Positions 6,078-38,109 of a stretch of 64,000 bases of DNA are shown here, in pieces (the stretch's first letter is position 1; the number at the start of each line of letters is the position of its first letter). The notes under the pieces are model-generated. The model searched no databases. It was given only the letters and a program-made list of their open reading frames with translations, and was not told the origin of the DNA. The stretch spans positions 3,160,001 through 3,224,000 of the forward strand of contig CAIIXF020000006.1 of the NCBI GenBank assembly GCA_903813345.2, written 5' to 3'. The position numbers and the translations under genes are program-made. The stretch is from Owenia fusiformis (lineage: Eukaryota > Annelida > Polychaeta > Sabellida > Oweniidae).

Positions 6078-6346
6078 TTTCAGAGTTGACTGCTCTGGCA
6101 GAAGAGGAAGCCATTCGCATAAGCAACAGGAAAAGTTTCAGAAAGTCTCGAAGGTGTATCTCATCAATCAATGAGGAATCTGAGCCTGAAAATGAGGAGA
6201 ATGATGAAAATGATATAAATGTAGAAGGTGCTAAAGAACCAACGGATCCAAAAGTTGCTGCCCAACTTGAACGCAAAGCTAAGATTGCGCAGGAATTGAT
6301 TGATTCAGAGAAAACATACCAACAGCATTTAGAACTTGTTCTTAAG
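6078..6346 (+). CDS. ARHGEF39: RhoGEF exon 2: acidic N-terminus and start of DH domain
   Basis: The acceptor is TTGCACTTAG and the donor CTTAAG|GTAGAA (phase 0). It encodes about residues 10-99: an Arg/Ser segment (RKSFRKSRR), a Glu/Asn-rich linker (EESEPENEENDEND), then the first DH helix with the CR1 signature AQELIDSEKTYQQHLELV. The conserved Glu of CR1, which contacts switch I of the GTPase in this family, is present in DSEKTY. An alternative acceptor six bases downstream (TTTCAG) would also stay in frame and drop two residues. Confidence 0.85.
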
Positions 6347-7225: not shown

Positions 7226-7272
7226 TCAAAAACAATTAGATACATTAATCACTGTTTATTATTTGCTTGCAG

Positions 7273-7488
7273 TATTTCCAAGAGCCACTTTTGAACAGCA
7301 ACATGCTTCCAAGAAATGTTGTCAGTGTTATTTTTGGCAACATTGAGCAGATTATTGCTGTAAACCGAGCCCTTCATGTTCACCTGGCCCACTTAGATGT
7401 CGGAGAAGCATTCAAGCAATTGATGCCCTTCCTTAAGCTATATTCTATGTATGCAAATGGGCATGAGAGAGCACTGGCAACATTAATG
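7273..7488 (+). CDS. ARHGEF39: RhoGEF exon 3: DH domain middle, ends at first of ~12 repeated donors
   Basis: The acceptor is TTGCTTGCAG and the exon opens with YFQEPLLNS. It encodes residues 100-171 (FGNIEQIIAVNRALHVHL through FLKLYSMYANGHERALATLM), standard DH helices. The first usable donor is ATTAATG|GTAAGT at 7489, phase 0. The last 75 bases of this exon plus GTAAGT are repeated tandemly downstream, so the true 3' end is ambiguous. This end was chosen because the single-copy form joins exon 4 (EWDQKSSEFAAF) with normal DH spacing. Confidence 0.8.
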
Positions 7489-8407
7489 GTAAGTAAGCAA
7501 TTGATGCCCTTCCTTAAGCTATATTCTATGTATGCAAATGGGCATGAGAGAGCACTGGCAACATTAATGGTAAGTAAGCAATTGATGCCCTTCCTTAAGC
7601 TATATTCTATGTATGCAAATGGGCATGAGAGAGCACTGGCAACATTAATGGTAAGTAAGCAATTGATGCCCTTCCTTAAGCTATATTCTATGTATGCAAA
7701 TGGGCATGAGGGAGCACTGGCAACATTTATGGTAAGTAAGCAGTTGGTGCCCTTCCTTAAGCTATATTCTATGTATGCAAATGGGCATGGGAGAGCACTG
7801 GCAACATTAATGGTAAGTAAGCAATTGATGCCCTTCCTTAAGCTATATTCTATGTATGCAAATGGGCATGAGGGAGCACTGGCAACATTAATGGTAAGTA
7901 AACAGTTGATGCCCTTCTTTAAGCTATATTCTATGTATGCAAATGGGCATGAGAGAGCACTGGCAACATTAATGGCAAGTAAGCAGTTGATGCCCTTCTT
8001 TAAGCTATATTCCATGTATGCAAATGGGCATGAGAGAGCACTGGCAACATTAATGGTAAGTAAGCAGTTGATGCCCTTCTTTAAGCTATATTCCATGTAT
8101 GCAAATGGGCATGAGAGAGCACTGGCAACATTAATGGTAACTTGGTAAGTAAGCAATTGGTGCCCTTCCTTAAGCTATATTCTATGTATGCAAATGGGCA
8201 TGAGAGAGCACTGGCAACATTAATGGTAAGTAAGAAGTTGATGCCCTTCCTTAAGCTATATTCTATGTATGCAAATGAGCATGAGAGAGCACTGGCAACA
8301 TTAATGGTAAGTAAGCAATTGATGCCCTTCCTTAAGCTATATTCTATGTATGCAAATGGGCATGAGAGAGCACTGGCAACATTAATGGCAAGTAAGCAGT
8401 TGATGCC
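7414..8407 (+). repeat. 81-bp coding/donor minisatellite (~12 copies) straddling the exon 3 border
   Basis: The period is 81 bp: 75 bp of exon 3 (KQLMPFLKLYSMYANGHERALATLM) plus the donor GTAAGT. Copies end at 7488, 7569, 7650, 7731, 7812, 7893, 7974, 8055, 8136, 8225, 8306 and 8387. An 8-bp insertion (GTAACTTG) after copy 9 shifts frame and brings a TAA. Copies 7 and 12 have GCAAGT donors. A decayed 13th copy with stops follows to about 8470. Each unit is 27 codons, so copies 1-9 form one open frame. Whether any unit beyond the first is translated cannot be told from sequence. Confidence 0.95.
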
Positions 8408-8646
8408 CTCTCTTTAGCTCTATTCTATGTTTGAGCATCAATAGCTCTGGCAACATAAATGCCATGGTAGGTTAGCTATTAAATAGTAGTATATAATTCC
8501 CCTAAAAGATGCAGCAAAATCAAATTAAATTCTCAATTCTACACAATATTTCAAAATTCCTGCAGTCCTCTACTTGACTGGGCAGTCGGCATTGCCATTG
8601 TCTAGAATGTAAAATACATTTACCTATTCTTGTTGATGTTATTCAG

Positions 8647-8765
8647 GAATGGGACCAGAAAAGTTCAGAATTTGCAGCATTCCGACGTAGACAGGAGGAC
8701 TTACCTGAAGTGAAAGGATTGAAGTTAAATGCCCTTCTGATAACACCAGTGCAGAGAATACCCAG
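8647..8765 (+). CDS. ARHGEF39: RhoGEF exon 4: DH domain CR3
   Basis: The acceptor is TGTTATTCAG and the donor ATACCCAG|GTAATC (phase 2). It encodes EWDQKSSEFAAFRRRQEDLPEVKG and LNALLITPVQRIPR, residues 172 to the split Arg at 211. The VQRIPRY block (continued in exon 5) is the hallmark conserved DH helix that packs on the GTPase. Confidence 0.9.
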
Positions 8766-9776: not shown

Positions 9777-9847
9777 GTACAAGCTTATGCTGGAGGATCT
9801 GTTAAAGTTCACACCGCAAGACAGTGAAGATTACCCTGCAATTAAAG
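9777..9847 (+). CDS. ARHGEF39: RhoGEF exon 5: DH helix after CR3
   Basis: The acceptor is GTGATTTAG and the donor ATTAAAG|GTATGT. It encodes YKLMLEDLLKFTPQDSED and YPAIK, the C-terminal part of the conserved DH helix. It begins with one base completing the Arg codon from exon 4 and ends with one base of the Asp codon completed 18.7 kb away in exon 6. Confidence 0.9.
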
Positions 9848-12533: not shown

Positions 12534-13600
12534 CGTGGTCGGGAGTAAAGAAGAGTAACCCAGGCTGAAGAAGAGTAACCCTGAGTAGAGCAGAGCAGCG
12601 AAGAGTAAAGAAGAGTAACCCAGGCTGAAGAAGAGTAACCCTGAGTAGAGCAGAGCGGCGAAGGGTAAAGAAGAGTAACCCAGGCTGAAGAAGAGTAACC
12701 CTGAGTAGAGCAGAGCGGCGAAGAGTAAAGAAGAGTAACCCAGGCTGGAGAAGAGTAACCCTGAGTAGAGCAGAGCGGCGAAGAGTAAAGAAGAGTAACC
12801 CAGGCTGGAGAAGAGTAACCCTGAGTAGAGCAGAGCGGCGAAGAGTAAAGAAGAGTAACCCAGGCTGAAGAAGAGTAGAACAGAGTAAAGCAGAGCAGAG
12901 CGGAATAAAGAGTAACCAGAGCAGAACAGAGTAAAGCAGAGCAGAGCGGAATAAAGAGTAACCAGAGCAGAACAGAGTAAAGCAGAGCAGAGCAGATAGG
13001 AGTAAAGAGTAACCAGAGCAGAGAAGATAGGAGTAAAGAGTAAGCAGAGCAGATAGGAGTAAAGAGTAACCAGAGCAGAATCTGAGTAAGCAGAGCAGAT
13101 AGGAGTAAAGAGTAAACAGAGCAGAGCAGATAGGAGTAGAGAGTAACCAGAGCAGAATCCTGAGTAAGCAGGGCAGGTAGGAGTAAAGAGTAAGCAGAGC
13201 AGGGCAGATAGGAGTAAAGAGTAAGCAGAGCAGAATCCTGAGTAAGCAGGACAGATAGGAGTAAAGAGTAAGCAGAGCAGAGCAGATAGGAGTAAAGAGT
13301 AAGCAGAACAGAATCCTGAGTAAGCAGGACAGATAGGAGTAAAGAGTAAGCAGAGCAGAGCAGATAGGAGTAAAAAGAGTAAACAGAGCAGAACAGATAG
13401 GAGTAAAGAGTAAGCCGAGCAGAACAGATAGGAGTAAAGAGTAAGCAGAGCAGAATTCTGAAGAAGTAGGGAAGATAGGAGTAAAGAGTAAGCATAGCAC
13501 AGCGGAAAGGAGTAAAGAGTAAGCAGAGCAGAAAGGAATAAAGAGTGAGCAGAGCAGAATAGAGTAAAGCAAAACAGAGTCAAGAGGAAGCAGAACAAAC
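12534..13600. repeat. Polypurine minisatellite (~1.1 kb)
   Basis: Five to six copies of a 60-bp unit (GAAGAGTAACCCAGGCTGAA plus GAGTAGAGCAGAGCGGCG) are followed by many 25-50-bp units of GCAGATAGGAGTAAAGAGTAA. The + strand is overwhelmingly A and G. All three - strand frames stay open for about 400 codons (Leu/Ser/Tyr-rich) simply because the repeat lacks stops. I regard these as non-coding. Confidence 0.9.
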
Positions 13601-15878: not shown

Positions 15879-16202
15879 TTTATTATATACCCTATACTGA
15901 CTCTTGTTCCGTTTCCTCTGCGAAGGCCAAAAAGTCTTAGAAAGCCCCCTCCCTGGGTCCATTGTTAGCATTATAAGCTGTGACATCATCAGATGCTCAA
16001 CAGAAATTTTTGCCTCTGAGACTCTCACTTGACAAATTCAATCGCATTTAACACGCGGAATAGATTATCATAACACTTGAAATTACACAGACGTATTGAG
16101 CTTAGGGAATTTTATACACGTTGCTTATATTGTATCGTTCACGCACGTCTGTCATGGTGAACGGAGCTGATTTGTGTTTGTGCTCATCCTCCATTTTTAT
16201 CG

Positions 16203-17400
16203 TACCTAACAAAAGGTACGATATTGTAGTCAGCTTGACGGGTGGCGGGCGGGCGGGCGGCGGGCGGGCGGCGTCTCACTTTTCAGCTTGTCTACAGGTT
16301 TCCAGCCAAACCATTTGAGGGATTCAACTGAAATTTTCAGGGATGTTTGTACATATCAACGTCAAGAACTGATTAGTTTTTGGGCATTCTGGGTAAATCT
16401 TAAGGTGGCCATTTTGGATTTTCCGTCCTAAAATCTTCACTTTCAAGACTTGTCTACAGGTTTCCAGCCAAACCATTTGAGGGATTCATCTGAAATTTTC
16501 AGGGATGTTTCTACATATCAACGTCAAGAACTGATCAGTTTTTGGGCATTCTGGGTAAATCTTAAGGTGGCCATTTTGGATTTTCCGTCCTAAAATCGTC
16601 ACTTTCAAGACTTGTCTACAGGTTTCCAGCCAAACCATTTGAGGGATTCATCTGAAATTTTCAGGGATGTTTCTACATATCAGCGTCAAGAACTGATTAG
16701 TTTTTGGGCATTCTGGGTAAATCTTAAGGTGGCCATTTTGGATTTTCCGTCCTAAAATCTTCACTTTCAAGACTTGTCTACAGGTTTCCAGCCAAACTAT
16801 TTGAGGGATTCATCTGAAATTTTCAGGGATGTTTCTACATATCAACGTCAAGAACTGATTAGTTTTTGGGCATTCTGGGTAAATCTTAAGGTGGCCATTT
16901 TGGATTTTCCATCCTAAAATCTTCACTTTCAAGACTTGTCTACAGGTTTCCAGCCAAACCATTTGAGGGATTCATCTGAAATTTTAAGGGATGTTTCTAC
17001 ATATCAACGTCAAGAACTGATTAGTTTTTGGGCATTCTGGGTAAATTTTAAGGTGGCCATTTTGGATTTTCCGTCCTAAAATCTTCACTTTCAATACTTG
17101 TCTACAGGTTTTCAGCCAAACCTTTTGAGGGATTCATCTGAAATTTTCAGGGATGTTTCTACATATCAACGTCAAGAACTGATTAGTTTTTGGGCATTCT
17201 GGCTAAATTTTAAGGTGGCCATTTTGGATTTTCTGTCCTAAAATCTTCACTTTCAAGACTTGTCAACAGGTTTCAGCCAAACCGTTCAAATTTTTACATA
17301 TGTTACACAGTGATAAGTTCTAGAGCTGATTAAGTTTTCTGCGGCCATCTTGCTTTCTTGGTCAACAAGACCACAATGCTGTGTTTCAGGTACGATATTG
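16203..17400. repeat. 162-bp minisatellite with GC-rich head
   Basis: Six full copies and a partial one of a 162-bp unit begin CTTGTCTACAGGTTTCCAGC at 16287, 16449, 16611, 16773, 16935, 17097 and 17259. They are preceded by a (GGGC)n-type run at about 16241-16273. The word GGTACGATATTGT occurs on both sides (16214 and 17389), suggesting one composite element. Confidence 0.9.
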
Positions 17401-17983
17401 TTCACGTCTGCGCAGTGATGATGTGCAGACGTTTCCAAGGGTAATAGAAGTTGCAATCGTGACATCAGCGGGCAATAGTTCAAATGTATATTCCCGCTGA
17501 CGTCACATTTGAGGAAATATAACTTTCCGAGGGAAATAGTAAATCACGTGACTAGGTATTGACCAATCAGGATTAGTGTTACATATTGGGTATATAATAA
17601 GAAATTATATTCACTTCATCATGAAATATTTTTAGGCCTTTACTGTATTACCACCTTAATTTAACAATAGTAAATGTTTAAAGCTTCATTAATGAACCCT
17701 GTGGGAATTAATGGATCACAAATCAATGTATAAGAGAGTAATTTCAATGTTGATACAATATATAAAATGCAGAGAAGTGTTAATTGGTTTTAACAATAAC
17801 CTTATCTAATTATTTGTATTTAATTAAAATGGCTTCATATTTGATTACTTTTGTTGAGTTTAATCACCGTTACCATGGCATAACTGTGAAGTAACGGTGG
17901 ATGAAATGCGATTTTTCTAAAGGAAAAATTCCAGAACAAATTTTGAATCTTTTGATTCTTTGAATTTCACATATAAACGAGCT

Positions 17984-18056
17984 ATGTCTGGAAGAAATTG
18001 TATTGTATTGTTTGGAATGCTGGGAATGTATATGGTTGCAGTGGAATCAGTGTTGG
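17984..18056 (+). CDS. WSC gene 1 exon 1: signal peptide
   Basis: ATGTCTGG start; 24 codons plus one base, ending GTGTTGG|GTAAGT. MSGRNCIVLFGMLGMYMV plus AVESVL is a hydrophobic secretion signal. The copy-2 exon begins with the same MS and ends with the same ESV pattern, supporting the start. Confidence 0.78.
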
Positions 18057-18247
18057 GTAAGTTTCATTTTACTTATTTTTCACATTTTCATACCTTAGAT
18101 CTAGGAAAGCATAATTCATATGTGTTCATGTATCATACGATTATCTAAATTAGGTGAAACAATTGTCAGGTAATAGCATTCCGTTCATAGCAAATCAAAT
18201 TATTTTTTGATATTATTTTGAAAAAATTGATGCATAATTTTTTTCAG

Positions 18248-18370
18248 TTGAAAGTCTTTTTATTGGATGTTATAAAGATAATCCAGATAATCATCCAAAA
18301 AATCGAGATATGCCTGGCCATTGGAGAGTCAGCAACATCGGAGAATGCATCATACTTTGCCATACTAGAG
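18248..18370 (+). CDS. WSC gene 1 exon 2: first half of WSC domain
   Basis: The acceptor is TTTTTTTCAG and the donor ACTAGAG|GTATAT. It encodes VESLFIGCYKDNPDNHPKNR and DMPGHWRVSNIGECIILCH, containing the first three WSC cysteines. It aligns throughout with copy-2 exon 2, but is one codon shorter. Confidence 0.82.
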
Positions 18371-18786
18371 GTATATCAACTCATATTTTGCTCTTGTATT
18401 GTAACAATTCTTTTTTTATTGAACAATTCAATTTTATAGAACAGTCAGTGATACATGTATAGATTATTTCGCATTTCTTAAAAAAAAGATTTTTTGTGTA
18501 GAATGATTTTCTTGAAAGTGTTTAACTTATTGTGTTTACCTTCATATCATTAGTTTGTTAACAGTCCCACCACCAAAAAGGTAACTCAGGTTAAATAATA
18601 ATTTGTAAAAATATGAAATTATTGCTTGATGGATAGGTTTAGTTTAACATATCCTCTGAACATTTCTGAGTAATAAATACAAGCTTTATTAAATTAACAA
18701 AATTAGATTTTCAATGTTGGTTTACGATCACATTGAATTTTGAATATTTACTCCTGTCTTACACGTTAATGAATTATATATTATAG

Positions 18787-18951
18787 GACGTAAATATGCT
18801 GGACTCCAGTACTTTTGGCAGTGTTTTTGTGGTAATAGCTATGGATTGTATGGAGAAGTTGATGGATGTACAGTGAAATGCGATGGTTGCGCTTCACAAA
18901 TATGTGGAGGTTATGCAAGAAATTCAATCTACAATTCCACAAATGTAGCAG
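18787..18951 (+). CDS. WSC gene 1 exon 3: second half of WSC domain
   Basis: The acceptor is TATATTATAG and the donor GTAGCAG|GTATGT; same 165-base length as in copy 2. It encodes YAGLQYFWQCFCGNSYG and VKCDGCASQICGGYARNS, with the CxCG and CGG signatures of WSC. An N-glycosylation sequon (NST) follows. Confidence 0.85.
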
Positions 18952-19907
18952 GTATGTAAAACATTTGTATAGATTTGTGAAGGTGACTTTCACTTCATTG
19001 CTATGGATTTCCTTTTCTCTAAATTAAAGAATCACTGTCAATTATATAAAGGAGTAAACCATTTTGGTGTTTTGGAACCATTTTTCTCTTAGATGCACCT
19101 TAATGTAAGAGTGCCACTTTAAAAAAATGTATATCTAAATGAACAAATAAATAAATATTGCATTGCTCACATTGGGAAATATAATTTATATTAATTCATA
19201 TGTATACCAACCACCAGATTTGCTCACTTTTGCCTCATTAAATTAATGGGAGAATCAGACAAAGGAATTGAGAAAATTGCAAGCAATATTCACCTTCCAA
19301 TGAATCCCTTACCAGCTCAAATATAATATCTCCCAAAAGATAAGTGATATGTTATCAATTGGTGAAGTTATTTAAGATTCTAATATAATATGTGAGGTCA
19401 CAATGCTAGAACAATTGATTTACTGTTAAAATTCATAAATGCAAATACATGGAGTTGTTTTTCTTGTCTGTTTATCATATAAGAGAGACTATACGATATC
19501 AATTTTTAACAATGAACAGAATAAAACTTTCGCCCATATATTGCCCCATAAATCAAAAATCCCGGTCTTTATTCTTTATTACAAAGTTCAAAAATGAAGG
19601 GAAACGTTTAAATTCTCCCAAATAATTAAAATGGCAAAAATATATACAGTATAGGCAATTGTTTGCATTATTGTAAAAATCTTTATTTTTCCTCAAATAA
19701 AATTTATACTTTGGTATTTTTTAGAAAATAGACAAAACAAGGAATATCCAAAATATGCTATAATTGAAACAATTTTGTCAAGATCATGATGACAATAACG
19801 ATGGATACTTGTATATTGCTATATCTGATTCTGCGTTTAATCTGATTGAAGTTTGGACAGGAAGTTTGGTATTGGTGAAGTGATGGATTTCTGAATATAT
19901 TTTGCAG

Positions 19908-20386
19908 GAATAATTGACCAGTGTCCACCAAAAACCTCACCACCAAGTCAGACAACACCAAAGGATGAAGTAGTCACAACTGAAATGACAACATATGTAT
20001 CAGAATATAATGTAACAACTGCACTGTATGTGTCAACAGAGACATTGGATGATCTGACAACAATCTCAACTGAAGCAACAGAAGTACAAAATGATGTGAC
20101 AGCAGTCCTAAATGTAACAGCAGAGGTACTAAATGATGTGACAGCAGTCCAAAATGTAACAACAGACATACCAAATGATGGATCCGAATCTAGCACCTAT
20201 AAGAGACCAAAGCGTTTAGTCCTAGAACCAACTGAGGCGAAATATGCAGCAGTTTTAGGAATTCCTCCATTTTTTATCATAATAGCTATCATCATAATAG
20301 TCGTTAATGCTGATCTTAGAATATTGTATAAGCATACTAGGAAGGGCTTTAATAATATCAAAAAGGGCCTTACAAATTTCAAATAA
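19908..20386 (+). CDS. WSC gene 1 exon 4: stalk, furin-like site, membrane span, tail
   Basis: The acceptor is ATTTTGCAG; it ends in TAA at 20384-20386. It opens IIDQCPPK, then a Thr-rich stalk with short imperfect repeats (VTAVLNVTAEVLND), YKRPKR, and a hydrophobic run around IPPFFIIIAIIIIVV, followed by a basic tail ending KKGLTNFK. Fewer stalk repeats than copy 2 account for most of the length difference. Confidence 0.85.
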
Positions 20387-22433
20387 TACAAGTATGATTT
20401 GTGCCAAAGATCACCCATTGTACTTTCAAAATAAGCACAAAAAGTGAAACATTGAGAATTTCTAAGAAGTGCATGTGGAGACATTGGTGGACATCTTTCG
20501 CCAATTATAAATGGAAAAAAGAGTTCAAAACCATGTAGGAAAGGAAAGATACTCAAGTCTAGGAATCCATTTTATTGTAAACGTCCCATGTAGGTTCTTT
20601 GGGCAATGTGCTCTATATTCCATAAACGATGAAAGATATCTTTGAATGATTTCTAGAGCGTGTACCATAAAGGTCACTTAGTCTTAAGTCTTGCAGAAGT
20701 TACATGGCATCAACATACATGTTACGACATGGATGATGTCCTTAATCAATGCTCTAGGGGTCTGGATAACTGCTACAATGCGAATGTTGAAGTTGTTCAC
20801 TGCTCGTTCCAGCATATTTAGGGGTGTTTTGTAATTCTAAAGCATTTTTCTTTATTTTAAGGAAGGAAAAATTGTTCTACACCCCCAATACGATCAACAT
20901 GGAGTCCCTTTGGATATGTGTGACAATCAAAGTAGATTCCACATGGAATCCACACTATTCCATGTGAATAAACATGGAAAAACTTTCCCAATTTCAAGTT
21001 GATCAACTTGCCTAAAATCCAAGCAGATTTCACATGAAATCCATGTGGGTTTCACAAGGATTCTAGGTGGATCCTCGAGGCACAGGTTCCATGTCGATGT
21101 AGATGGGCTCTGTATTTAATGTTTTTTGAGCAGTAAACAACTTCAACATTCTCATTACAGCAGTTCTCCAGAACTGTGGAACATGGATTGAGCATATCTT
21201 CCATTTATCAGGCATGGCTGTTGATGCCATGTACCTTTTGCAAGACTTAGACTGAGTGACCTTTGTGGTACCCCCAAAAACTTTAGACTTGCCTCTAAAA
21301 CATATGAGAATATTAGCCCATGAATGCAAGATATAACTGAGATATAGCCAATGTTCCAAGGGTTCACCTTTTGGACCACCCTGTGTATTGTCAATTCTTT
21401 GCTTATTTTCCCCAAGTTGAGTAAGGTTTAGAACCTTATTGAAAGAGCTAAATAAAGTTGAACTATTGCTTGGATTGATTCGAAAATTTTCAAATTCTAA
21501 AATGATTGGCTGATTATGTTAAAATCGCTTACCAGCATTGATTGAGCTGCTTCTGTGGACAGTGCCGTTTATCCAATTCTTCAAAAATGTTTAAATCATC
21601 GTTCAATGGAAACTATACCCCATTGACTCTGTAGATTTGACATGTCCTAACGTAAATGTCATTTATCTAGTTACTTGTAAAGGATGTGGTTAAAACTGAA
21701 GACCCTTTTCATGTCTGTATGCCTATGAATGACTTGATTTCATCTATCCCACATATTTTATGAGTACCAGTATCTACAATTATTTTTGATGTCATGTTTA
21801 CATATTTGAGTAAAGAGAGTATTTTTTGTAAAACATAATGATAAAATTAATTAGGAATGGATGTATAAACAAAATTATTATTTTATTGTCCAATGATTGT
21901 ACATTTTACTTCAGTTTGCAAAATAAATTATTGTAGCTTTTTTGTACTTTATTTACATTAGACAGACATGGAGAATTGTTATTAATGAATGCAATAACTA
22001 TGGGGTATCTTGGCTATTTTTTAAATTGAAACACTTGATTCATGTTCTAGGTAGCTTATTTCACAAGCAACAATGAACTTGCCTGCATTTTTTTCCGATG
22101 ATTGACAATTTTCAATGACATCTTATAACATGTTACATAAACATCATCCCCTCTTCCTTCCTCCCTCCCTCTTCCACTTTTTGCATTTTGCCTCTGTTTA
22201 CCAATCAGGGTGCCCCTCCTAATCTTAAACTAGGAATCTGCCCCTGAATAAACAAACACTGAAAAACAGCCTTATGCTATGGCTCTGATATAAATTGTAT
22301 CGAGTTTATTAAGTAGTGTTTAATCTCTGCTAGAATATCTGTGGAGCATCAGTAGGTGACACATGATTTCTGATCAATAAATTCCAAAATAATTTTTAGA
22401 TATTTTGAATTTTATCTGGAAAACAACAATACT
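20387..22433. other. Spacer between the two WSC genes
   Basis: No exon seen. It includes a segment ending GGACCACCCTGTGTA (about 21380), another mariner-type terminus, and a copy of a dispersed repeat (about 21710-21800, TCTATCCCACATATTTTATG) also present near 27060 and 59440. The rest is AT-rich without recognised features. Confidence 0.5.
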
Positions 22434-22515
22434 ATGTCTGAAGGAAATTTGATTATTATGTTGAGAATGTTAGGAATACACATGATGTATATGGTTATTG
22501 CTGAGTCAGTGCAAG
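22434..22515 (+). CDS. WSC gene 2 exon 1: signal peptide
   Basis: 27 codons plus one base from ATGTCTGAAGG to GTGCAAG|GTAAGT. MSEGNLIIMLRMLGIHMM and YMVIAESVQ form a hydrophobic leader. The donor and its flank (GTAAGTTTCATTT) match copy 1, showing the paralogy extends into the intron. Confidence 0.78.
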
Positions 22516-22745
22516 GTAAGTTTCATTTGCTTAATTTTGACATTTTTTATGTTGTTGGTGTATTTTTATAAGATTAATTAAGTTGATTACATCAATGAAA
22601 TGTTACATAATAGCAATTCAAAGTTAGCAATATTGCTAGAATAACAATATTCTAATGTGAAAAATCAATTTTATTTTGTAGCACTTTTAATGTTTTCTTT
22701 ATTTTAGTTATTTAGAATTGTGATGCCTTCAATTATTTTTTTCAG

Positions 22746-22871
22746 TTGAAAGTATTTTTATTGGATGTTATAAAGATAATGGAACAGATCATCCAAAATA
22801 TCGAGATATCAGATATGACTTTTTGAAAGTTAACAACATAGGAGAATGCATCAAAGATTGCCATTTTAAAG
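22746..22871 (+). CDS. WSC gene 2 exon 2: first half of WSC domain
   Basis: The acceptor is TTTTTTTCAG and the donor TTTAAAG|GTAAAT. It encodes VESIFIGCYKDNGTDHPKYR and DFLKVNNIGECIKDCHFK. Cysteines are placed as in the WSC family. Confidence 0.84.
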
Positions 22872-24225
22872 GTAAATTATTGACCTTGTATTTTTGTTAT
22901 TATAATTTCACAATTTACAGTTGAAAAAAGTTGAAACAACATTATGTAGCACCGATCATGTCCATGTTCAGGGAGCAAGGTTCATGCATCCCAAATATTT
23001 TAAACAAATAAAAATGTTCAGAAAAGTAAAACTTTATGTTCAACATAGATTGGTCAGAAAATTGGATTGCTTCTTAATTTATCTTTATTCTCCATTTTAA
23101 TGCAATGGAATGCATATTTAAACATTTTTTAAATGGTTGAGTCAACCAATTAATCAAAAAACCAAATCATGATAAGCATAAGTTTAGAATAGCAAAAATA
23201 AAACCAAATCAGCTTATCTTTTATATTCTGTGGTATTAGAGAATTTGAGATATAATAAAAAGGAGTAAAATGATAACATCACATCCTGCTGAAAATATTT
23301 TATTTTGTTCATTAATTTGATTAAATTACATCTCTATATATTTTTATGTCACCCCTGAATAGCTACTGTGTTTACAGATGATTCAATTTAGAAATTGATG
23401 ATTATACAAAATGCTATGTTATGAATAATTTAATGATTGGTATTTTACCTATTTTTATAGACCCATGTAGGAGCATAATGTAAAACTACATATAGTAGTT
23501 TTTTGATTAATTATAACTACAACGCAGATGTCACTGAGTTCTAATGAATAAAATATTTCAACGGATACCTCATGTTAAGCGGAGATAAAGTCAAATTGAC
23601 ATGACAAAAGCATATTTCATCAGGAATAAAATAGGAAATACATGTACATCATAGAAATAATTCATATTCTTTGATTTAATATTTCTGATTCCTTGTCCTT
23701 CTCTTGTATGTTCTTAATGTCCATCACATCATGCTTTAACATTTATTGGGTATAAACTTTAGTAATGATACCACCTATAACATATATATGTGTTCATTGC
23801 ATACTAATGCTGAATGATAAATTGAATTGAATAAAGTGAGGAACATTGTTCAGTTACTGCTTAACTACAAACAACTCAAAATGCTAGTTAGGTAGTGATT
23901 ACACACATTTTAGAAGCAGGTTTTTGTGTATGTATTTTTAAATAACCAATCTATGGTTGTCAGTATTATGTGTATACACATATTCAGCAATGTTACCAAT
24001 CCATACCCTGCAAATATAATTCATGTATAATTTACAGTGAAGATGAGATATATGTGCACATGTATTTTACAAATATTTAATTCTGCTGAGGTGGATACCT
24101 GTGTATCTTTCACAAGTGATATTCCAGGAGGCCTGAAGGGCTAGTGAAATATCATGTGAAAGTATTACAAGTATTCATCGAAGACACAATGGAATATTTG
24201 TTTAATTGTTGATTATTCACTGCTA

Positions 24226-24465
24226 TATTCCTCACTCACATTAATGGAATAGCTATTGATGTCTAATTAATCATAACAATGTACTGCCGGGTATATATAA
24301 AATTATAATTACACTGGACTAAATTGGACTGGTGAATATCCTTTCATATTCAAAGGAAGTCATGTGACTTCAGGTGAACACCTCTATTTAATTTTTAGTC
24401 ATGTGTAGGACATATTTTTAGTCATGTGTAGGGCCTATCAAAGAGTGAGGAATATGACAGTGATA
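24226..24465. repeat. Foldback element in WSC gene 2 intron 2
   Basis: ATTCACTGCTATATTCCTCACTC at the left is inverted in GAGTGAGGAATATGACAGTG near 24445. The interior has a tandem TTTTTAGTCATGTGTAGG pair. Confidence 0.6.
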
Positions 24466-24665
24466 TAATAGTAATAGTAATTATTCATTTTTGATAACAG
24501 TACAACCTCCATTGACAGCTCCAAGAGCTGTATAAATCTCAAAGCAAGTAAAATTACATGTACTTTCTCAGTCAAATTTTATACAATATTTACAATCAAT
24601 TTTCATATTTAATTATTATACAAAGCATTGCTATCTCATTCATGTTGTCAATCCTTTATTTATAG

Positions 24666-24830
24666 GGTATAAATATGCTGGCCTCCAGTACCTTTGGCAG
24701 TGCTTTTGTGGTGATGACTATGGATCATATGGAGAAGGTGATGGATGTAATTTGAAATGCGATGGTTGCGCTTCACAAATATGTGGAGGTTATGAAAGAA
24801 ATTCCATCTACAACTCAACAAATGTAACAG
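24666..24830 (+). CDS. WSC gene 2 exon 3: second half of WSC domain
   Basis: The acceptor is CTTTATTTATAG and the donor ACAG|GTATGT. It encodes GYKYAGLQYLWQCFCGDDYG, then CNLKCDGCASQICGGYERNS and an NST sequon. Identical in length to the copy 1 exon and very similar in sequence. Confidence 0.86.
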
Positions 24831-25108
24831 GTATGTAAAACTGACTGTCTTCCCTTTATTGCCATGCATCCAAATTTTACTTGACTGATACTCAAACTTT
24901 GAATTGTATTGTTAGCATATTTTTTGTTCTTGATTAGACTGGTATATTGTTTATTATTATGATCTAAATATGGGATTTATTATGATAGATTATGTACAAT
25001 AAAGCATTTTGAATTTATATTGTTGGACTAAAACTGTATTTTATATGAATAGATTCTTAAATCAATGCACATTGCTATTTTTAAATGATGTTTTTAAATA
25101 TTTTACAG

Positions 25109-25866
25109 GAATAATTAACGAGTGTCCACCAATAATTCATCCAGGTTTGATAACACCAAATGATGAAGAAATCACAACTGAAATGACAGCATATGTAACT
25201 GTAGACACATTGGATAATAAAACAACAATTTCAAATGTAGCTGCAGAAGAACTAGATGTTATAACAACAACTCCAAATGTAACTGCAGAAGAACTGAATG
25301 TTATAACAACAATCCCAAATGTAACTGCAGAAGAACTGAATGTTATAACAACAACCCCAAATGTAAATGCAGAAGAACTGAATGTTATAACAACAACCCT
25401 AAATGTAACTGCAGAAGAACTGAATGTTATAACAACAACCCCAAATGTAACTGCAGAAGAACTAAATAATATGTCAGCAACAGCAAATGTAAAAATGACA
25501 ATAACTGAAAATGTAACTGTAGATGCACTGAATGATATAACAACCTCAAATGTAACTGTAGAAGATATGAATGATATTACAGCAACCCCAAATGTAACTG
25601 CAGATGTGCCAGATTTCATTGTAGCAACAGGAGCACCAAATTATGAAGCTGAATCTTACACCTATAAGAGACCAAAACGTTTTGAGCCAGAACCATCTGA
25701 GGCAGAATATGCAGCTGTTTTAGGAACCCCCTTATTTTGTATCATAATAGCTATTATCTTAGTGTTTGTTAATGCAGATCTCCCTATCTTGTATAGGCAC
25801 ATTAGGAAGGGCTTTAGAAATATCAGAGACGTATTCAACCCAAAGTCTGCACTGAACGCTACCTAG
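25109..25866 (+). CDS. WSC gene 2 exon 4: repeat stalk, furin-like site, membrane span, tail
   Basis: The acceptor is ATTTTACAG; it ends in TAG at 25864-25866. About ten units of AEELNVITTTPNVT type follow IINECPPIIHPG. Then come YKRPKRFEPEPSEAEYAAVL, a hydrophobic span and a basic tail with RKGFRNIRD. The 42-bp DNA unit is a coding minisatellite. The - strand open frame over it (25137-25619) is a shadow. Confidence 0.88.
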
Positions 25867-28522: not shown

Positions 28523-28689
28523 ATGCAGCTGGGGAGATGCAAAAGGTGGCGCTACATATCAATGAACATGTTCGCCAGCATGAAAACTTTCAAAAGATGT
28601 TAGCAATCCAGCGTAATCTGGCAGGGGAGGCAGCTCCGAAGATTCTTGCTCCTGGCAGAGTGTTTCTAAAGGAAGGGAACCTTATGAAG
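28523..28689 (+). CDS. ARHGEF39: RhoGEF exon 6: end of DH domain and start of PH domain
   Basis: The acceptor is CTTCTTTGAAG and the donor CTTATGAAG|GTGGGA (phase 0). It encodes residues 235-290: DAAGEMQKVALHINEHVRQH, the last DH helix, then the linker and PH strand 1 (GRVFLKEGNLMK). A second possible acceptor six bases downstream (GATGCAG) is also in frame. Confidence 0.88.
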
Positions 28690-31974: not shown

Positions 31975-34900
31975 AGTATTATGTTACTTCTAGATCATAT
32001 AGCATTTCCTCATAGCTTCTGTGCTGGTATAGTTCCAAATGTCCAAATGTATGTGTAAAGACAATTATAAAAGATTCACCATGTTTCAGAAAAAGTATTA
32101 TATGTTGCTTCTGGATCATATAGCATTTCCTCATAGCTTCTATGCTGGTCTAGTTCCAAATGTATGTGTAAAGACAAATATAAAAGATTCACCATGTTTC
32201 AGAAAAAGTATTATGTTGCTTCAGGATCATATAGCATTTCCACATAGCTTCTCTGCTGGTCTAGTTCCAAATGTATGTGTAAAGACAAATATAAAAGATT
32301 CGCCATGTTTCAGAAAAAGTATTATGTTGCTTCTGGATCATATAGCATTCCCTCATAGCTTCTCTGCTGGTATAGTTCCAAATGTATGTGTAAAGACAAA
32401 TATAAAAGATTCACCATGTTTCAGAAAAAGTATTATGTTGCTTCTAGATCATATGGCATTCCCTCATACCTTCTGTGCTGGTATAGTTCCAAATGTATGT
32501 GTAAAGACAAATATAAAAGATTCACCATGTTTCAGAAAAAGTATTATGTTGCTTCTAGATCATATAGCATTTCCTCATAGTTTCTCTGCTGACATAGTTC
32601 CAAATGTATGTGTAAAGACAATGTATAAAAGATTCACCATGTTTCAGAAAAAGTATTATGTTGCTTCTAGATCATATAGCATTTCCTCATAGCTTCTGTG
32701 CTGGTATAGTTCCAAATGTATGTGTAAAGACAAATATAAAAGATTCGCCATGTTTCAGAAAAAGTATTATGTTGCTTCTGGATCATATAGCATTTCCTCA
32801 TAGCTTCTGTGCTGGTCTAGTTCCAAATGTATGTGTAAAGACAAATATAAAAGATTCACCATGTTTCAGAAAAAGTATTATGTTGCTTCTAGATCATATA
32901 ACATTTCATCATAGCTTCTGTGCTGTTCAGTTCCAAATGTATGTGTAAAGACAATGTATAAAAGATTCACCATGTTTCAGAAAAAGTATTATGTTGCTTC
33001 TAGATCATATAGCATTTCCTCATAGCTTCTGTGCTGGTCTAGTTCCAAATGTATGTGTAAAGACAAATATAAAAGATTTGCCATGTTTCAGAAAAAGTAT
33101 TATGTTGCTTCTGGATCATATAGCATTTCCTCATAGCTTCTCTGCTGGTCTAGTTCCAAATGTATGTGTAAAGACAAATATAAAAGATTCACCATGTTTC
33201 AGAAAAAGTATTATGTTGCTTCTAGATCATATAGCATTTCCTCATAGCTTCTGTGCTGGTCTAGTTCCAAATGTATGTGTAAAGACAAATATAAAAGATT
33301 CACCATGTTTCAGAAAAAGTAGTTTGTTGCTTCTAGATCATATGGCATTCCCTCATAGCTTCTGTGCTGGTCTAGTTCCAAATGTTTGTGTAAAGTCAAA
33401 TATAAAAGATTCACCATGTTTCAGAAAAAGTATTATGTTGCTTCTGGATCATATGGCATTCCCTCATAGCTTCTATGCTGGTCTAGTTCCAAATGTATGT
33501 GTAAAGACAAATATAAAAGATTCACCATGTTTCAGAAAAAGTATTATGTTGCTTCTAGATCATATAGCATTCCTCATAGCTTCTGTGCTGGTTTAGTTCC
33601 AAATGTATGTGTAAAGACAAATATAAAAGATTCACCATGTTTAAGAAAAAGTATTATGTTGCTTCTGGATCATATGGCATTCCCTCATAGCTTCTATGCT
33701 GGTCTAGTTCCAAATGTATGTGTAAAGACAAATATAAAAGATTCACCATGTTTCAGAAAAAGTATTATGTTGCTTCTGGATCATATGGCATTTCCTCATA
33801 GCTTCTCGGCTGGTATAGTTCCAAATGTATGTGTAAAGACAAATATAAAAGATTCGCCATGTTTCAGAAAAAGTATTATGTTACTTCTAGATCATATGGC
33901 ATTTCCTCATAGCTTCTATGCTGGTCTAGTTCCAAATGTATGTGTAAAGACAAATATAAAAGAATCGCCATGTTTCAGAAAAAGTATTATGTTGCTCCTA
34001 GATCATATAGCATTTCCTCATAGCTTCTGTGCTGGTCTAGTTCCAAATGTATGTGTAAAGACAAATATAAAAGATTCACCATGTTTCAGAAAAAGTATTA
34101 TGTTGCTTCTAGATCATATAGCATTCCTCATAGCTTCTGTGCTGGTTTAGTTCCAAATGTATGTGTAAAGACAATATATAAAAGATTCACCATGTTTCAG
34201 AAAAAGTATTATGTTGCTTCTAGATCATATAGCATTCCTCATAGCTTCTGTGCTGGTTTAGTTCCAAATGTATGTGTAAAGACAATATATAAAAGATTCA
34301 CCATGTTTCAGAAAAAGTATTACCGTATTCTCTGTAATTAGCGCCTAGGGCGTTTAGAAAATTGAAAATACATTATTTAGACCATTCTAATAAGCGCCCA
34401 TGTATGAAAGAAATCAGAAATCCCGAGGAATTTCATGTATGGCAATTTTTCTTGACAAGAATGCATTTTCTTCAACATATTTTTATAATAATATGACAAG
34501 TGCTGTTATTGGAGAGAATACGGTAAAGATCGCTTAGACAATATTGACAGTGGTTGAAGACTATGTCTAATTTATTTCCGGCACGCCCACTTTGTCATTA
34601 TCGCCGATTACCTTCAATATTTCCACTAGAGACTGCTGGATATCGATCTAAAGTTATACATTATTTCTAATTTGATGAGAGATCATCATTATTCGTGCAA
34701 AAGTCGTGTAAAAGTCGAGAAACATTAAAAAGAAACCAGAAAGTTCACGACCTTGACATGCGCAGAACATCTGCGCAGTAGCTTTTGAAATTTCTGAATG
34801 CCGATAAAGAACAATTCCTTCATTCATTATGGACTATTTGGAGACAATATTAGCATGGTATGGTGTGGGAAGCACCCATCGATAGATATGTATCGAGAGA

Positions 34901-37900
34901 TGCATAGAATTACAAAACGCGTCGTGTTTACAGCAGTTTTAGGGTAAGTACTCTATTATCGCCCGCTCCTGGATTTTGAGAAATATTTTTTTCCTGATAT
35001 ATTCTTCAATTCTTGTTGATTCCACGATGTTTCTTGAACTTTGTGAAGCGGGGTGGGCGCTTATTAGAGAGTGGGCGGTAATTACAGAGAATACGGTATG
35101 TTGCTTCTAGATCATATAGCATTTCATTATAGCTTATGTGCTGGTCTAGTTCCAAATGTATGTGTAAAGACAATGTATAAAGGATTCACCATGTTTCAGA
35201 AAAAGTACTATGTTGCTTTTAGATCATATAGCATTTCCTCATAGCTTCTGTGCTGGTATAGTTCCAAATGTATGTGTAAAGACAAATATAAAAGATTCGC
35301 CATGTTTCAGAAAAAGTATTATGTTGCTTCTAGATCATATAGCATTTCCTCATAGCTTCTGTGCTGGTCTAGTTCCAAATGTATGTGTAAAGACAATGTA
35401 TAAAAGATTCACCATGTTTCAGAAAAAGTACTATGTTGCTTCTAGATCATATAGCATTTCCTCATAGCTTCTGTGCTGGTCTAGTTCCAAATGTATGTGT
35501 AAAGACAAATATAAAAGATTCACCATGTTTCAGAAAAAGTATTATTATGCTTCTAGATCATATAGCATTTCATTATAGCTTATGTGCTGGTCTAGTTCCA
35601 AATGTATGTGTAAAGACAATGTATAAAAGATTCACCATGTTTCAGAAAAAGTATTATGTTGCTTCTGGATCATATAGCATTTCCTCATAGCTTCTGTGCT
35701 GGTATAGTTCCAAATGTATGTGTAAAGACAAATATAAAAGATTCGCCATGTTTCAGAAAAAGTATTATGTTGCTTCTAGATCATATAGCATTTCCTCATA
35801 GCTTCTGTGCTGGAATAGTTCCAAATGTATGTGTAAAGACAATGTATAAAAGATTCACCATGTTTCAGAAAAAGTATTATGTTGCTTCTAGATCATATAG
35901 CATTTCCTCATAGCTTCTCTGCTGGTCTAGTTCCAAATGTATGTGTAAAGACAAATATAAAAGATTCGCCATGTTTCAGAAAAAGTATTATGTTGCTTCT
36001 AGATCATATAGCATTTCCTCATAGCTTCTGTGCTGGAATAGTTCCAAATGTATGTGTAAAGACAATGTATAAAAGATTCACCATGTTTCAGAAAAAGTAC
36101 TATGTTGCTTCTAGATCATATAGCATTTCCTCATAGCTTCTGTGCTGGTATAGTTCCAAATGTATGTGTAAAGACAAATATAAAAGATTCACCATGTTTC
36201 AGAAAAAGTATTATGTTGCTTTTAGATCATATAGCATTTCCTCATAGCTTCTCTGCTGGTATAGTTCCAAATATATGTGTAAAGACAAATATAAAAGATT
36301 CGCCATGTTTCAGAAAAAGTACTATGTTGCTTCTAGATCATATAGCATTTCCTCATAGCTTCTGTGCTGGTCTAGTTCCAAATGTATGTGTAAAGACAAA
36401 TATAAAAGATTCGCCATGTTTCAGAAAAAGTATTATGTTGCTTCTAGATCATATAGCATTTCCTCATAGCTTCTCTGCTGGTCTAGTTCCAAATGTATGT
36501 GTAAAGACAAATATAAAAGATTCGCCATGTTTCAGAAAAAGTATTATGTTGCTTCTGGATCATATAGCATTTCCTCATAGCTTCTGTGCTGGTCTAGTTC
36601 CAAATGTATGTGTAAAGACAATTATAAAAGATTCACCATGTTTCAGAAAAAGTATTATGTTGCTTCTAGATCATATAGCATTTCCTCATAGCTTCTCTGC
36701 TGGTCTAGTTCCAAATGTATGTGTAAAGACAAATATAAAAGATTTGCCATGTTTCAGAAAAAGTATTATGTTGCTTCTGGATCATATGGCATTCCCTCAT
36801 ACCTTCTGTGCTGGTCTAGTTCCAAATGTATGTGTAAAGACAAATATAAAAGATTCACCATGTTTCAGAAAAAGTATTATGTTGCTTCTAGATCATATAG
36901 CATTTCCTCATAGCTTCTCTGCTGGTCTAGTTCCAAATGTATGTGTAAAGACAAATATAAAAGATTCACCATGTTTCAGGAAAAGTATTATGTTGCTTCT
37001 AGATCATATGGCATTCCCTCATAGCTTCTGTGCTGGTCTAGTTCCAAATGTATGTGTAAAGACAAATATAAAAGATTCACCATGTTTCAGAAAAGTATTA
37101 TGTTGCTTCTAGATCATATAGCATTTCCTCATAGCTTCTGTGCTGGTCTAGTTCCAAATGTATGTGTAAAGACAAATATAAAAGATTCGCCATGTTTCAG
37201 AAAAAGTATTATGTTGCTTCTAGATCATATAGCATTCCTCATAGCTTCTGTGCTGGTATAGTTCCAAATGTATGTGTAAAGACAAATATAAAAGATTCAC
37301 CATGTTTCAGAAAAAGTATTATGTTGCTTCTGGATCATATAGCATTTCCTCATAGCTTCTGTGCTGGTCTAGTTCCAAATGTATGTGTAAAGACAAATAT
37401 AAAAGATTCACCATGTTTCAGGAAAAGTACTATGTTGCTTCTAGATCATATAGCATTTCCTCATAGCTTCTGTGCTGGTCTAGTTCCAAATGTATGTGTA
37501 AAGACAAATATAAAAGATTCACCATGTTTCAGGAAAAGTACTATGTTGCTTCTAGATCATATAGCATTTCCTCATAGCTTCTGTGCTGGTCTAGTTCCAA
37601 ATGTATGTGTAAAGACAAATATAAAAGATTCACCATGTTTCAGGAAAAGTACTATGTTGCTTCTAGATCATATAGCATTCCCTCATACCTTCTGTGCTGG
37701 TCTAGTTCCAAATGTATGTGTAAAGACAATGTATAAAAGATTCACCATGTTTCAGAAAAAGTACTATGTTCCTTCTAGATCATATAGCATTTCCTCATAG
37801 CTTCTCTGCTGGTATAGTTCCAAATGTATGTGTAAAGACAAATATAAAAGATTCGCCATGTTTCAGAAAAAGTATTATGTTACTTCTAGATCATATAGCA

Positions 37901-37980
37901 TTTCCTCATAGCTTCTGTGCTGGTCTAGTTCCAAATGTATGTGTAAAGACAAATATAAAAGATTCACCATGTTTCAGAAA
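31975..37980 (+). repeat. ~111-bp tandem array (~47 copies) carrying the exon 10 acceptor
   Basis: Near-identical units of 111 bp (with 110- and 112-bp variants) fill intron 9: about 21 copies before and about 26 after a 774-bp insertion at 34323-35096. Each unit ends ACCATGTTTCAG|AAAAAG, the same acceptor and first six bases that begin exon 10 at 37978. Because 111 is a multiple of three, long open frames (up to about 336 codons) appear. The 1-bp variants (GCATTCCTC for GCATTTCCTC, ACAATGTAT for ACAAATAT) break every frame repeatedly, so protein coding is unlikely. Confidence 0.95.
34323..35096. mobile_element. 774-bp TIR element inserted in the 111-bp array, TA duplication
   Basis: It opens CCGTATTCTCTGTAATTAGC and closes with the near-perfect inverse, TAATTACAGAGAATACGG, flanked by TA on both sides. 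Removing it and one TA restores the array sequence GTATTATGTTGC, which proves insertion into an existing unit. An internal copy of the end (AGAGAATACGG, near 34524) makes the left 200 bp look like a shorter MITE within it. No transposase frame was seen, so it is non-autonomous. The TA target fits the Tc1/mariner superfamily, but this is not proof. Confidence 0.85.
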
Positions 37981-38109
37981 AAGCTTGGGGTCTCAGAATG
38001 CACCAGAAGTCCTCTGACACCAATAAGAAGGCTCATAGCTGATAATCTGACCCCACGGAAAAAGCGTAAATTGGAATCAAAGAAGCCAACTATAGGCAGC
38101 CCTATGCAG
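37978..38109 (+). CDS. ARHGEF39: RhoGEF exon 10: phosphosite and basic cluster
   Basis: The acceptor is the last copy of the array's ATGTTTCAG, and the donor is CCTATGCAG|GTAAAC (44 codons, phase 0 both sides). It encodes KKLGVSECTRSPLTPIRRL and IADNLTPRKKRKLESKK. T-P-I-R and T-P-R-K match the full CDK consensus S/T-P-x-K/R, and KKRK resembles a monopartite nuclear localisation signal. Confidence 0.85.

Follow-up and report, generated by a model that had tools for sequence, protein, structure and literature searches.

A minisatellite across an exon-intron boundary of a RhoGEF gene in Owenia fusiformis, and similar arrays at other exon ends of the genome

The RhoGEF gene and its repeat array

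The DNA considered here is a stretch of 64,000 nucleotides of the annelid Owenia fusiformis (contig CAIIXF020000006.1, forward-strand positions 3,160,001 to 3,224,000), which is called the window below. It contains a gene whose spliced model matches PF00621 over the full length (154.5 bits, E 4e-45; Pfam gathering cut-off 27.6) and resembles many solved DH domains in a comparison with the PDB. The identification of the gene as a RhoGEF, made in an earlier note on this DNA, is thus upheld; our impression is that ARHGEF39 is its ortholog. A tandem array spans the boundary of exon 3 and intron 3, and a splice signal is present in many, not all, of its units. The features of the locus are as follows.

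6084..6346, + strand: exon 2 of the RhoGEF gene; start placed from the frame and TTTCAG, end AAG/GTAGAA
7273..7488, + strand: exon 3 up to donor 1; 216 nt, phase 0, codes for DH residues
7414..7494, + strand: copy 1 of the unit; the last 75 bp of the exon, then GTAAGT; identical to the TRF consensus
7489..7494, + strand: donor 1, ATG/GTAAGT; putatively the donor in regular use
7495..8142, + strand: copies 2-9; in frame with exon 3, proposed to be intronic
8143..8150, + strand: 8 extra bases, TGGTAAGT, after copy 9; a stop at 8146-8148 closes the open frame
8151..8393, + strand: copies 10-12; out of frame with exon 3
8394..8472 (end approximate), + strand: decayed copy 13; in-frame stops, gaps
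8647..8765, + strand: exon 4; the acceptor TTATTCAG ends at 8646, phase matches exon 3
9777..9847, + strand: exon 5; phase consistent
28523..28689 (approximate limits), + strand: exon 6; here DH ends and a PH-like part starts

The exon limits around the array (exon 3 at 7273-7488, exon 4 from 8647, with matching phases) are borne out. We take exon 4 to be conserved region 3 of the DH domain, and any residues encoded by further repeats would come after conserved region 2.

TRF places the tandem repeat at 7414-8430 of the window, with a period of 81, 12.5 copies and a 94% match. The description of the 81-bp unit as 75 bp of exon followed by GTAAGT is borne out. The starts of copies 1-9 follow 7414+81k and the final base of copy 9 is 8142, so these copies do share a single frame, with their donors in phase 0, as had been claimed; copies 10, 11, and 12 start at 8151, 8232, and 8313. 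The roughly 12 successive donors of the earlier description correspond to 12 copies, and the decayed 13th copy after them carries a donor-like GTAGGT at 8467. GTAAGT is retained in nine of the 12 copies (1-6, 8, 10, and 11). The three altered donors are GTAACT in copy 9 and the GC donors of copies 7 and 12, which had been recognized before. The 8-bp insertion, also rightly seen to end the frame after copy 9, creates a second GTAAGT at 8145.

Copies 1-3 show no differences among themselves, and pairwise differences among copies 1-12 range from 0 to 6. The unit at the far edge (copy 13) has diverged and the unit at the 5' edge has not. A decayed distal copy together with a first copy that equals the consensus is what would be expected if only the first copy were constrained. 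The word AAGCA, found at the unit start and after the donor, had been suggested as a microhomology seed for the first duplication. This is weak evidence and we reject it as circular, because copy 2 follows donor 1 directly and the AAGCA found there is how that copy begins (its first five bases). A search of one genome assembly (498.3 Mb, with 12 contigs of 32-62 Mb making up 477 Mb) gave one match to the array locus. In the same genome the annelid erythrocruorin-linker profile PF16915 has three matches above its cut-off, and in 14 control genomes it has none.

The window holds other repetitive DNA. The long intron after exon 5 includes open frames (16106-25866) that resemble a small gene present twice in tandem, with a Cys-rich stretch, presumably WSC-like, and Thr/Asn-rich repeats; these are probably nested genes. 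A 6-kb array at 31975-37983 has a 111-bp unit and higher periods of 222 and 333 bp, and a complex nested minisatellite with AGAGTAA-like units and many overlapping periods lies at 12543-13569. With regard to the idea of GC nucleation, GC content in this window alone is 36.2% in the arrays versus 32.7% in the remainder, which we do not count as a result.

Substitutions and products of the extra copies

Compared with copy 1, copies 2-12 carry 12 distinct changes, of which seven are nonsynonymous, three are synonymous, and two fall in the donor hexamer. Neutral change in the exon part of the unit would give about 69% nonsynonymous, 28% synonymous, and 3% stop changes. Coding constraint was looked for in copies 2-12 and none was found, the ratio of 7 to 3 being like that of non-coding DNA; at this locus alone the test is weak, with 10 exon changes only, and the changes among copies are not independent because of homogenization. 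Sparing of the donor was likewise sought in copies 2-12. Changed cells amount to 3/66 in the donor hexamer and 19/825 in the exon part (p 0.22, not significant), and hence no excess conservation of the donor was detected.

The product of donor 1 fills positions 1-180 of PF00621 in one unbroken stretch, and when one or two units are added the match breaks into two. The bit scores do not drop but rise slightly (156.7 for donor 1, 159.3 with one extra unit, 161.9 with two), because the repeated part is matched twice. An AlphaFold2 model of the nine-copy open frame has a pLDDT of 41.5 and is uninformative. Among the scored donors of the gene, pairing with the U1 end is strongest for GTAAGT, at -10.2 kcal/mol; the donors of the other exons reach -6.5 (exon 2), -8.4 (exon 4), and -7.6 (exon 5). 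Donor strength alone would therefore not prevent the use of downstream donors.

Arrays at other exon ends

Three GGTAAGT words at a spacing of 40-70 occur at 1611 places genome-wide and at a spacing of 71-100 at 1373 places (1253 and 1456 for the reversed word TGAATGG). These row counts are not evidence, because long arrays dominate them. The reversed word was rejected as a control for arrays, since simple TGGA repeats inflate it and the two words differ in frequency (56,088 occurrences of GGTAAGT and 96,958 of TGAATGG in the genome).

The array sample consists of 16 distinct places (10 + 6) among the matches listed, all on contig C1, where these matches extend to 48.5 and 58.8 Mb for the two spacings. 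Among the matches listed, 14 of the 16 arrays start at the end of a coding exon when judged by eye and unblinded. By homology the figure is 10 of 16 among the same matches, and this count is the more trustworthy one; it uses the open frame that runs up to the first donor, with a match to Pfam at E 0.05 or to PDB sequences at E 0.01. The exons recognized belong to BLOC1S5/Muted, CTDNEP1, MBT, mTOR, a relative of oxysterol-binding protein, WDR35, GTF2H2, TTI1, a thrombospondin type 1 domain, and a UPRTase domain, the last marginally under the Pfam cut-off. An NCBIfam search of three exon pieces gave no match. In the mTOR case, the exon end and its donor are tandemly repeated with a period of 54 (L013, C1:1050600-1052400).

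In a genome-wide sample of single GGTAAGT sites, 7 of 39 lie at an exon end by homology; the 39 are 52 rows minus 12 from one array on contig C4 and one near-copy on C3. The contrast with the 10 of 16 arrays among the matches listed gives a Fisher p of 0.0028 and an odds ratio of 7.6, for arrays from one contig (C1) set against a genome-wide control. This control replaced an earlier one from the first 1.5 Mb of C1 (+ strand), in which 39 single sites held one or two host exons, the matches being THOC1 (clear), one weak low-complexity match, and one retroelement; with the replacement the control rate rose to 7/39 and the contrast became lower. The earlier control used 39 of 40 sites, L064 having been dropped as part of the tail of a tetraspanin-like array (L008). 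One GGTAAGT control site (L059, C1:173851-174078) adjoins the edge of an open frame resembling a retroelement polymerase.

Arrays are also found on the acceptor side. Three TTTCAGG words at a spacing of 40-70 occur at 1574 places, versus 257 for the reversed word; these are row counts without a word-frequency control. Among the matches listed, 7 of 12 distinct places on C1 precede an exon start by eye, and a 13th place, on C2, stands outside this count. Pfam recognizes two of the seven exons clearly (P450 and myosin) and a VWA exon below the cut-off (E 0.0009); of the remaining four, two have weak matches (E about 0.015) and two have none. Thus, both 5' and 3' exon boundaries are affected by such arrays in this genome. 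For example, a ubiquitin-hydrolase exon (PF00443, E 1.3e-8) has arrays on both of its sides (L115 and L118, C4:3647500-3649400), with 16 acceptor words, mostly 81 bp apart, in the stretch examined on the acceptor side and a period of 54 on the donor side.

Shape of the unit and pooled substitutions

Sixteen donor arrays were pooled, namely the 14 by-eye arrays of C1, the RhoGEF array, and one array on C4. Their repeated units are on average 71% exon and contain a median of 11 bp of intron, and uniform placement of the boundary within the unit is rejected (p 0.01). Copies per array number from 3 to about 39 (TRF). Periods range from 19 to 84 bp; they were set by hand and are ambiguous for two arrays, L014 (36 or 67) and L017 (46 or 100). 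For L009, 18 exon bp were used versus 61 according to TRF, which biases against the claim that units are rich in exon. Only 6 of the 16 are divisible by three, and in most arrays splicing from a downstream donor would therefore change the reading frame. Six of 16 is no more than chance would give, and the frame-keeping period of 81 bp in the RhoGEF gene is therefore probably luck.

In the later copies with an intact GTAAGT, to which the pooled test was confined, the distinct changes in the exon part number 67 nonsynonymous, 29 synonymous, and 2 stops over the 16 arrays, against neutral expectations of 67.9, 27.2, and 2.9. The 12 arrays with a homology-supported frame give 48, 22, and 2 against 49.7, 20.1, and 2.2; the frames of the other four were set by eye. 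This neutral pattern argues that the copied exon ends behave as intron in this genome.

Proposed origin of the array and alternative explanations

The name mirage was given in amphioxus (Adh3) to exon-intron boundaries that are repeated in tandem. The RhoGEF array is most probably a mirage of this kind, the extra copies being intron that is spliced out from donor 1. What is directly observed is its anatomy and phase, the neutral substitutions, the decay of the distal copy, and the recurrence of such arrays at other exon ends. A tandem duplication across the boundary of exon 3 and intron 3 would have given birth to the minisatellite, and unequal exchange or slippage may have made it grow; copy number may vary between individuals. 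Copy 1 would leave exon 3 and its donor intact, and for this reason the gene would keep working. The spliceosome would define a 216-nt exon from the acceptor ending at 7272 and join donor 1 (7489) to exon 4, and copies 2-13 would make up the initial kilobase of the intron, where changes accumulate under neutrality. Where flanking introns are large, splice sites nearest to each other across the exon are preferred (PMC9225289). Such a preference would pick donor 1 in the RhoGEF gene and, in the mirror arrays, the last acceptor, so that arrays of either kind would be harmless.

The earlier note read the array in two parts. The first, a minisatellite that multiplies an exon end and its 5' donor inside the DH domain with copies 1-9 in phase, stands. 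The second was a role in length variation, with splicing from donor n to exon 4 adding 27x(n-1) residues. Alternative use of donors 1-9 in this manner, which would tune or inactivate the exchange factor, is in our judgement improbable, although minor use of downstream donors may occur. It would account for the single open frame of copies 1-9 in phase 0, it would suit donors that pair well with U1, and it has a counterpart in the human IFI6 minisatellite, whose splice donors are cited as the source of three mRNA species (PMC4526556, in the portion of the text available). However, the changes in the extra copies are neutral, both here and pooled over 16 arrays, three of the 12 donors are altered, the periods of the sister arrays are divisible by three at no more than the chance rate, and the insertion of repeats would interrupt an otherwise unbroken DH match. 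A ladder of DH lengths as the purpose of the array is not supported, given extra copies that are neutral and a donor that is not spared.

It is very unlikely that splicing inside the array makes mini-exons of its units or gives rise to a new intron. Each unit contains a weak acceptor-like CCCTTCCTTAAG, copy 13 contains CCTCTCTTTAG as read in the sequence, and intron gain from mirages has been proposed for amphioxus globins (PMC3087553). Against this, a donor and the neighbouring acceptor are only 30 nt apart, so that units would have to be skipped, and the reading of copy 13 has stops. It is just as hard to believe that the assembly made the array out of a single or shorter repeat: copies 1-3 are identical and come from a single assembly, but single copies have changes of their own, 8 bp are inserted at one place, the genome has one such locus, and similar arrays with other units lie at other exons. 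The mirage, with splicing from donor 1, is thus the reading that we retain.

Significance in this genome and comparison with known systems

The kind of structure is known; what is new is its recurrence in one annelid genome and the neutral test. By extrapolation from the 14 by-eye cases in the part of C1 covered by the matches listed, there could be about a hundred or more arrays at GGTAAGT donors, in addition to those on the acceptor side. Exon-boundary minisatellites may then be a major genome-wide class here, produced by a process that favours exon ends and makes units that are mostly exon and have one of their breakpoints a few bases into the intron. We consider this a real possibility, held at slightly less than even. 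If it is true, the arrays are a natural experiment on competition, at real exons, among 3 to about 39 near-identical splice sites. Ordinary RNA sequencing would reveal whether the site nearest to the exon always wins, and how often new introns or isoforms are seeded. The arrays are also a warning for gene prediction, as in-frame donor arrays resemble variable exons.

Among systems from other animals, a 1995 study by Turri is said to describe a minisatellite with multiple splice donor sites in human IFI6 (6-16). It is like the arrays described here in that a minisatellite multiplies a splice donor, and differs in that downstream units are cited as used there, with three mRNA species (PMC4526556, available portion), whereas their use is not indicated here.

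Introns derived from tandem arrays were reportedly described by Zhuo in 2007. A model of Rogers, in which introns derive from tandem duplication, is cited in the accessible text of PMC3087553. In such introns, as here, duplication brings splice signals into a gene; the RhoGEF array, in contrast, lengthens an existing intron, and no new intron is shown.

In earthworm metallothionein genes, the first intron contains monomers of minisatellite length, and duplications of the fourth exon, present in one clone, are reported to be missing from the final transcript (PMC12783039). This is again an annelid gene with a minisatellite in an intron; in contrast to the arrays here, the available part of that report makes no statement that the repeats span an exon-intron boundary.

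The closest resemblance is to the mirages of amphioxus, for which no counterpart outside amphioxus was found in the literature searched, a body that lacks most subscription papers. Those of the globins affect both types of boundary and are unstable in copy number, Adh3 data and RT-PCR of the same study suggest regular splicing despite the repeats, and mirages were proposed as an origin of new introns (PMC3087553, as far as its accessible text goes). Troponin C and PGBD5 were added later, and the mirages of Adh and troponin C are stated to generate no aberrant mRNAs (PMC3902484, accessible text). The amphioxus cases (Adh3, the globins BflGb6 and BflGb9, troponin C, and PGBD5) and those in Owenia are alike in being duplications of boundaries at 5' or 3' ends, with many units that carry splice signals and, in the text available, homogenized inner units. 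They differ in that regular splicing is reported in amphioxus, whereas the present arrays are known from genome sequence; the latter are in an annelid, often have more copies (3 to about 39), and have been compared with control sites. The recurrence of mirages in a second lineage suggests that this behaviour of minisatellites at splice junctions is either convergent or ancient.
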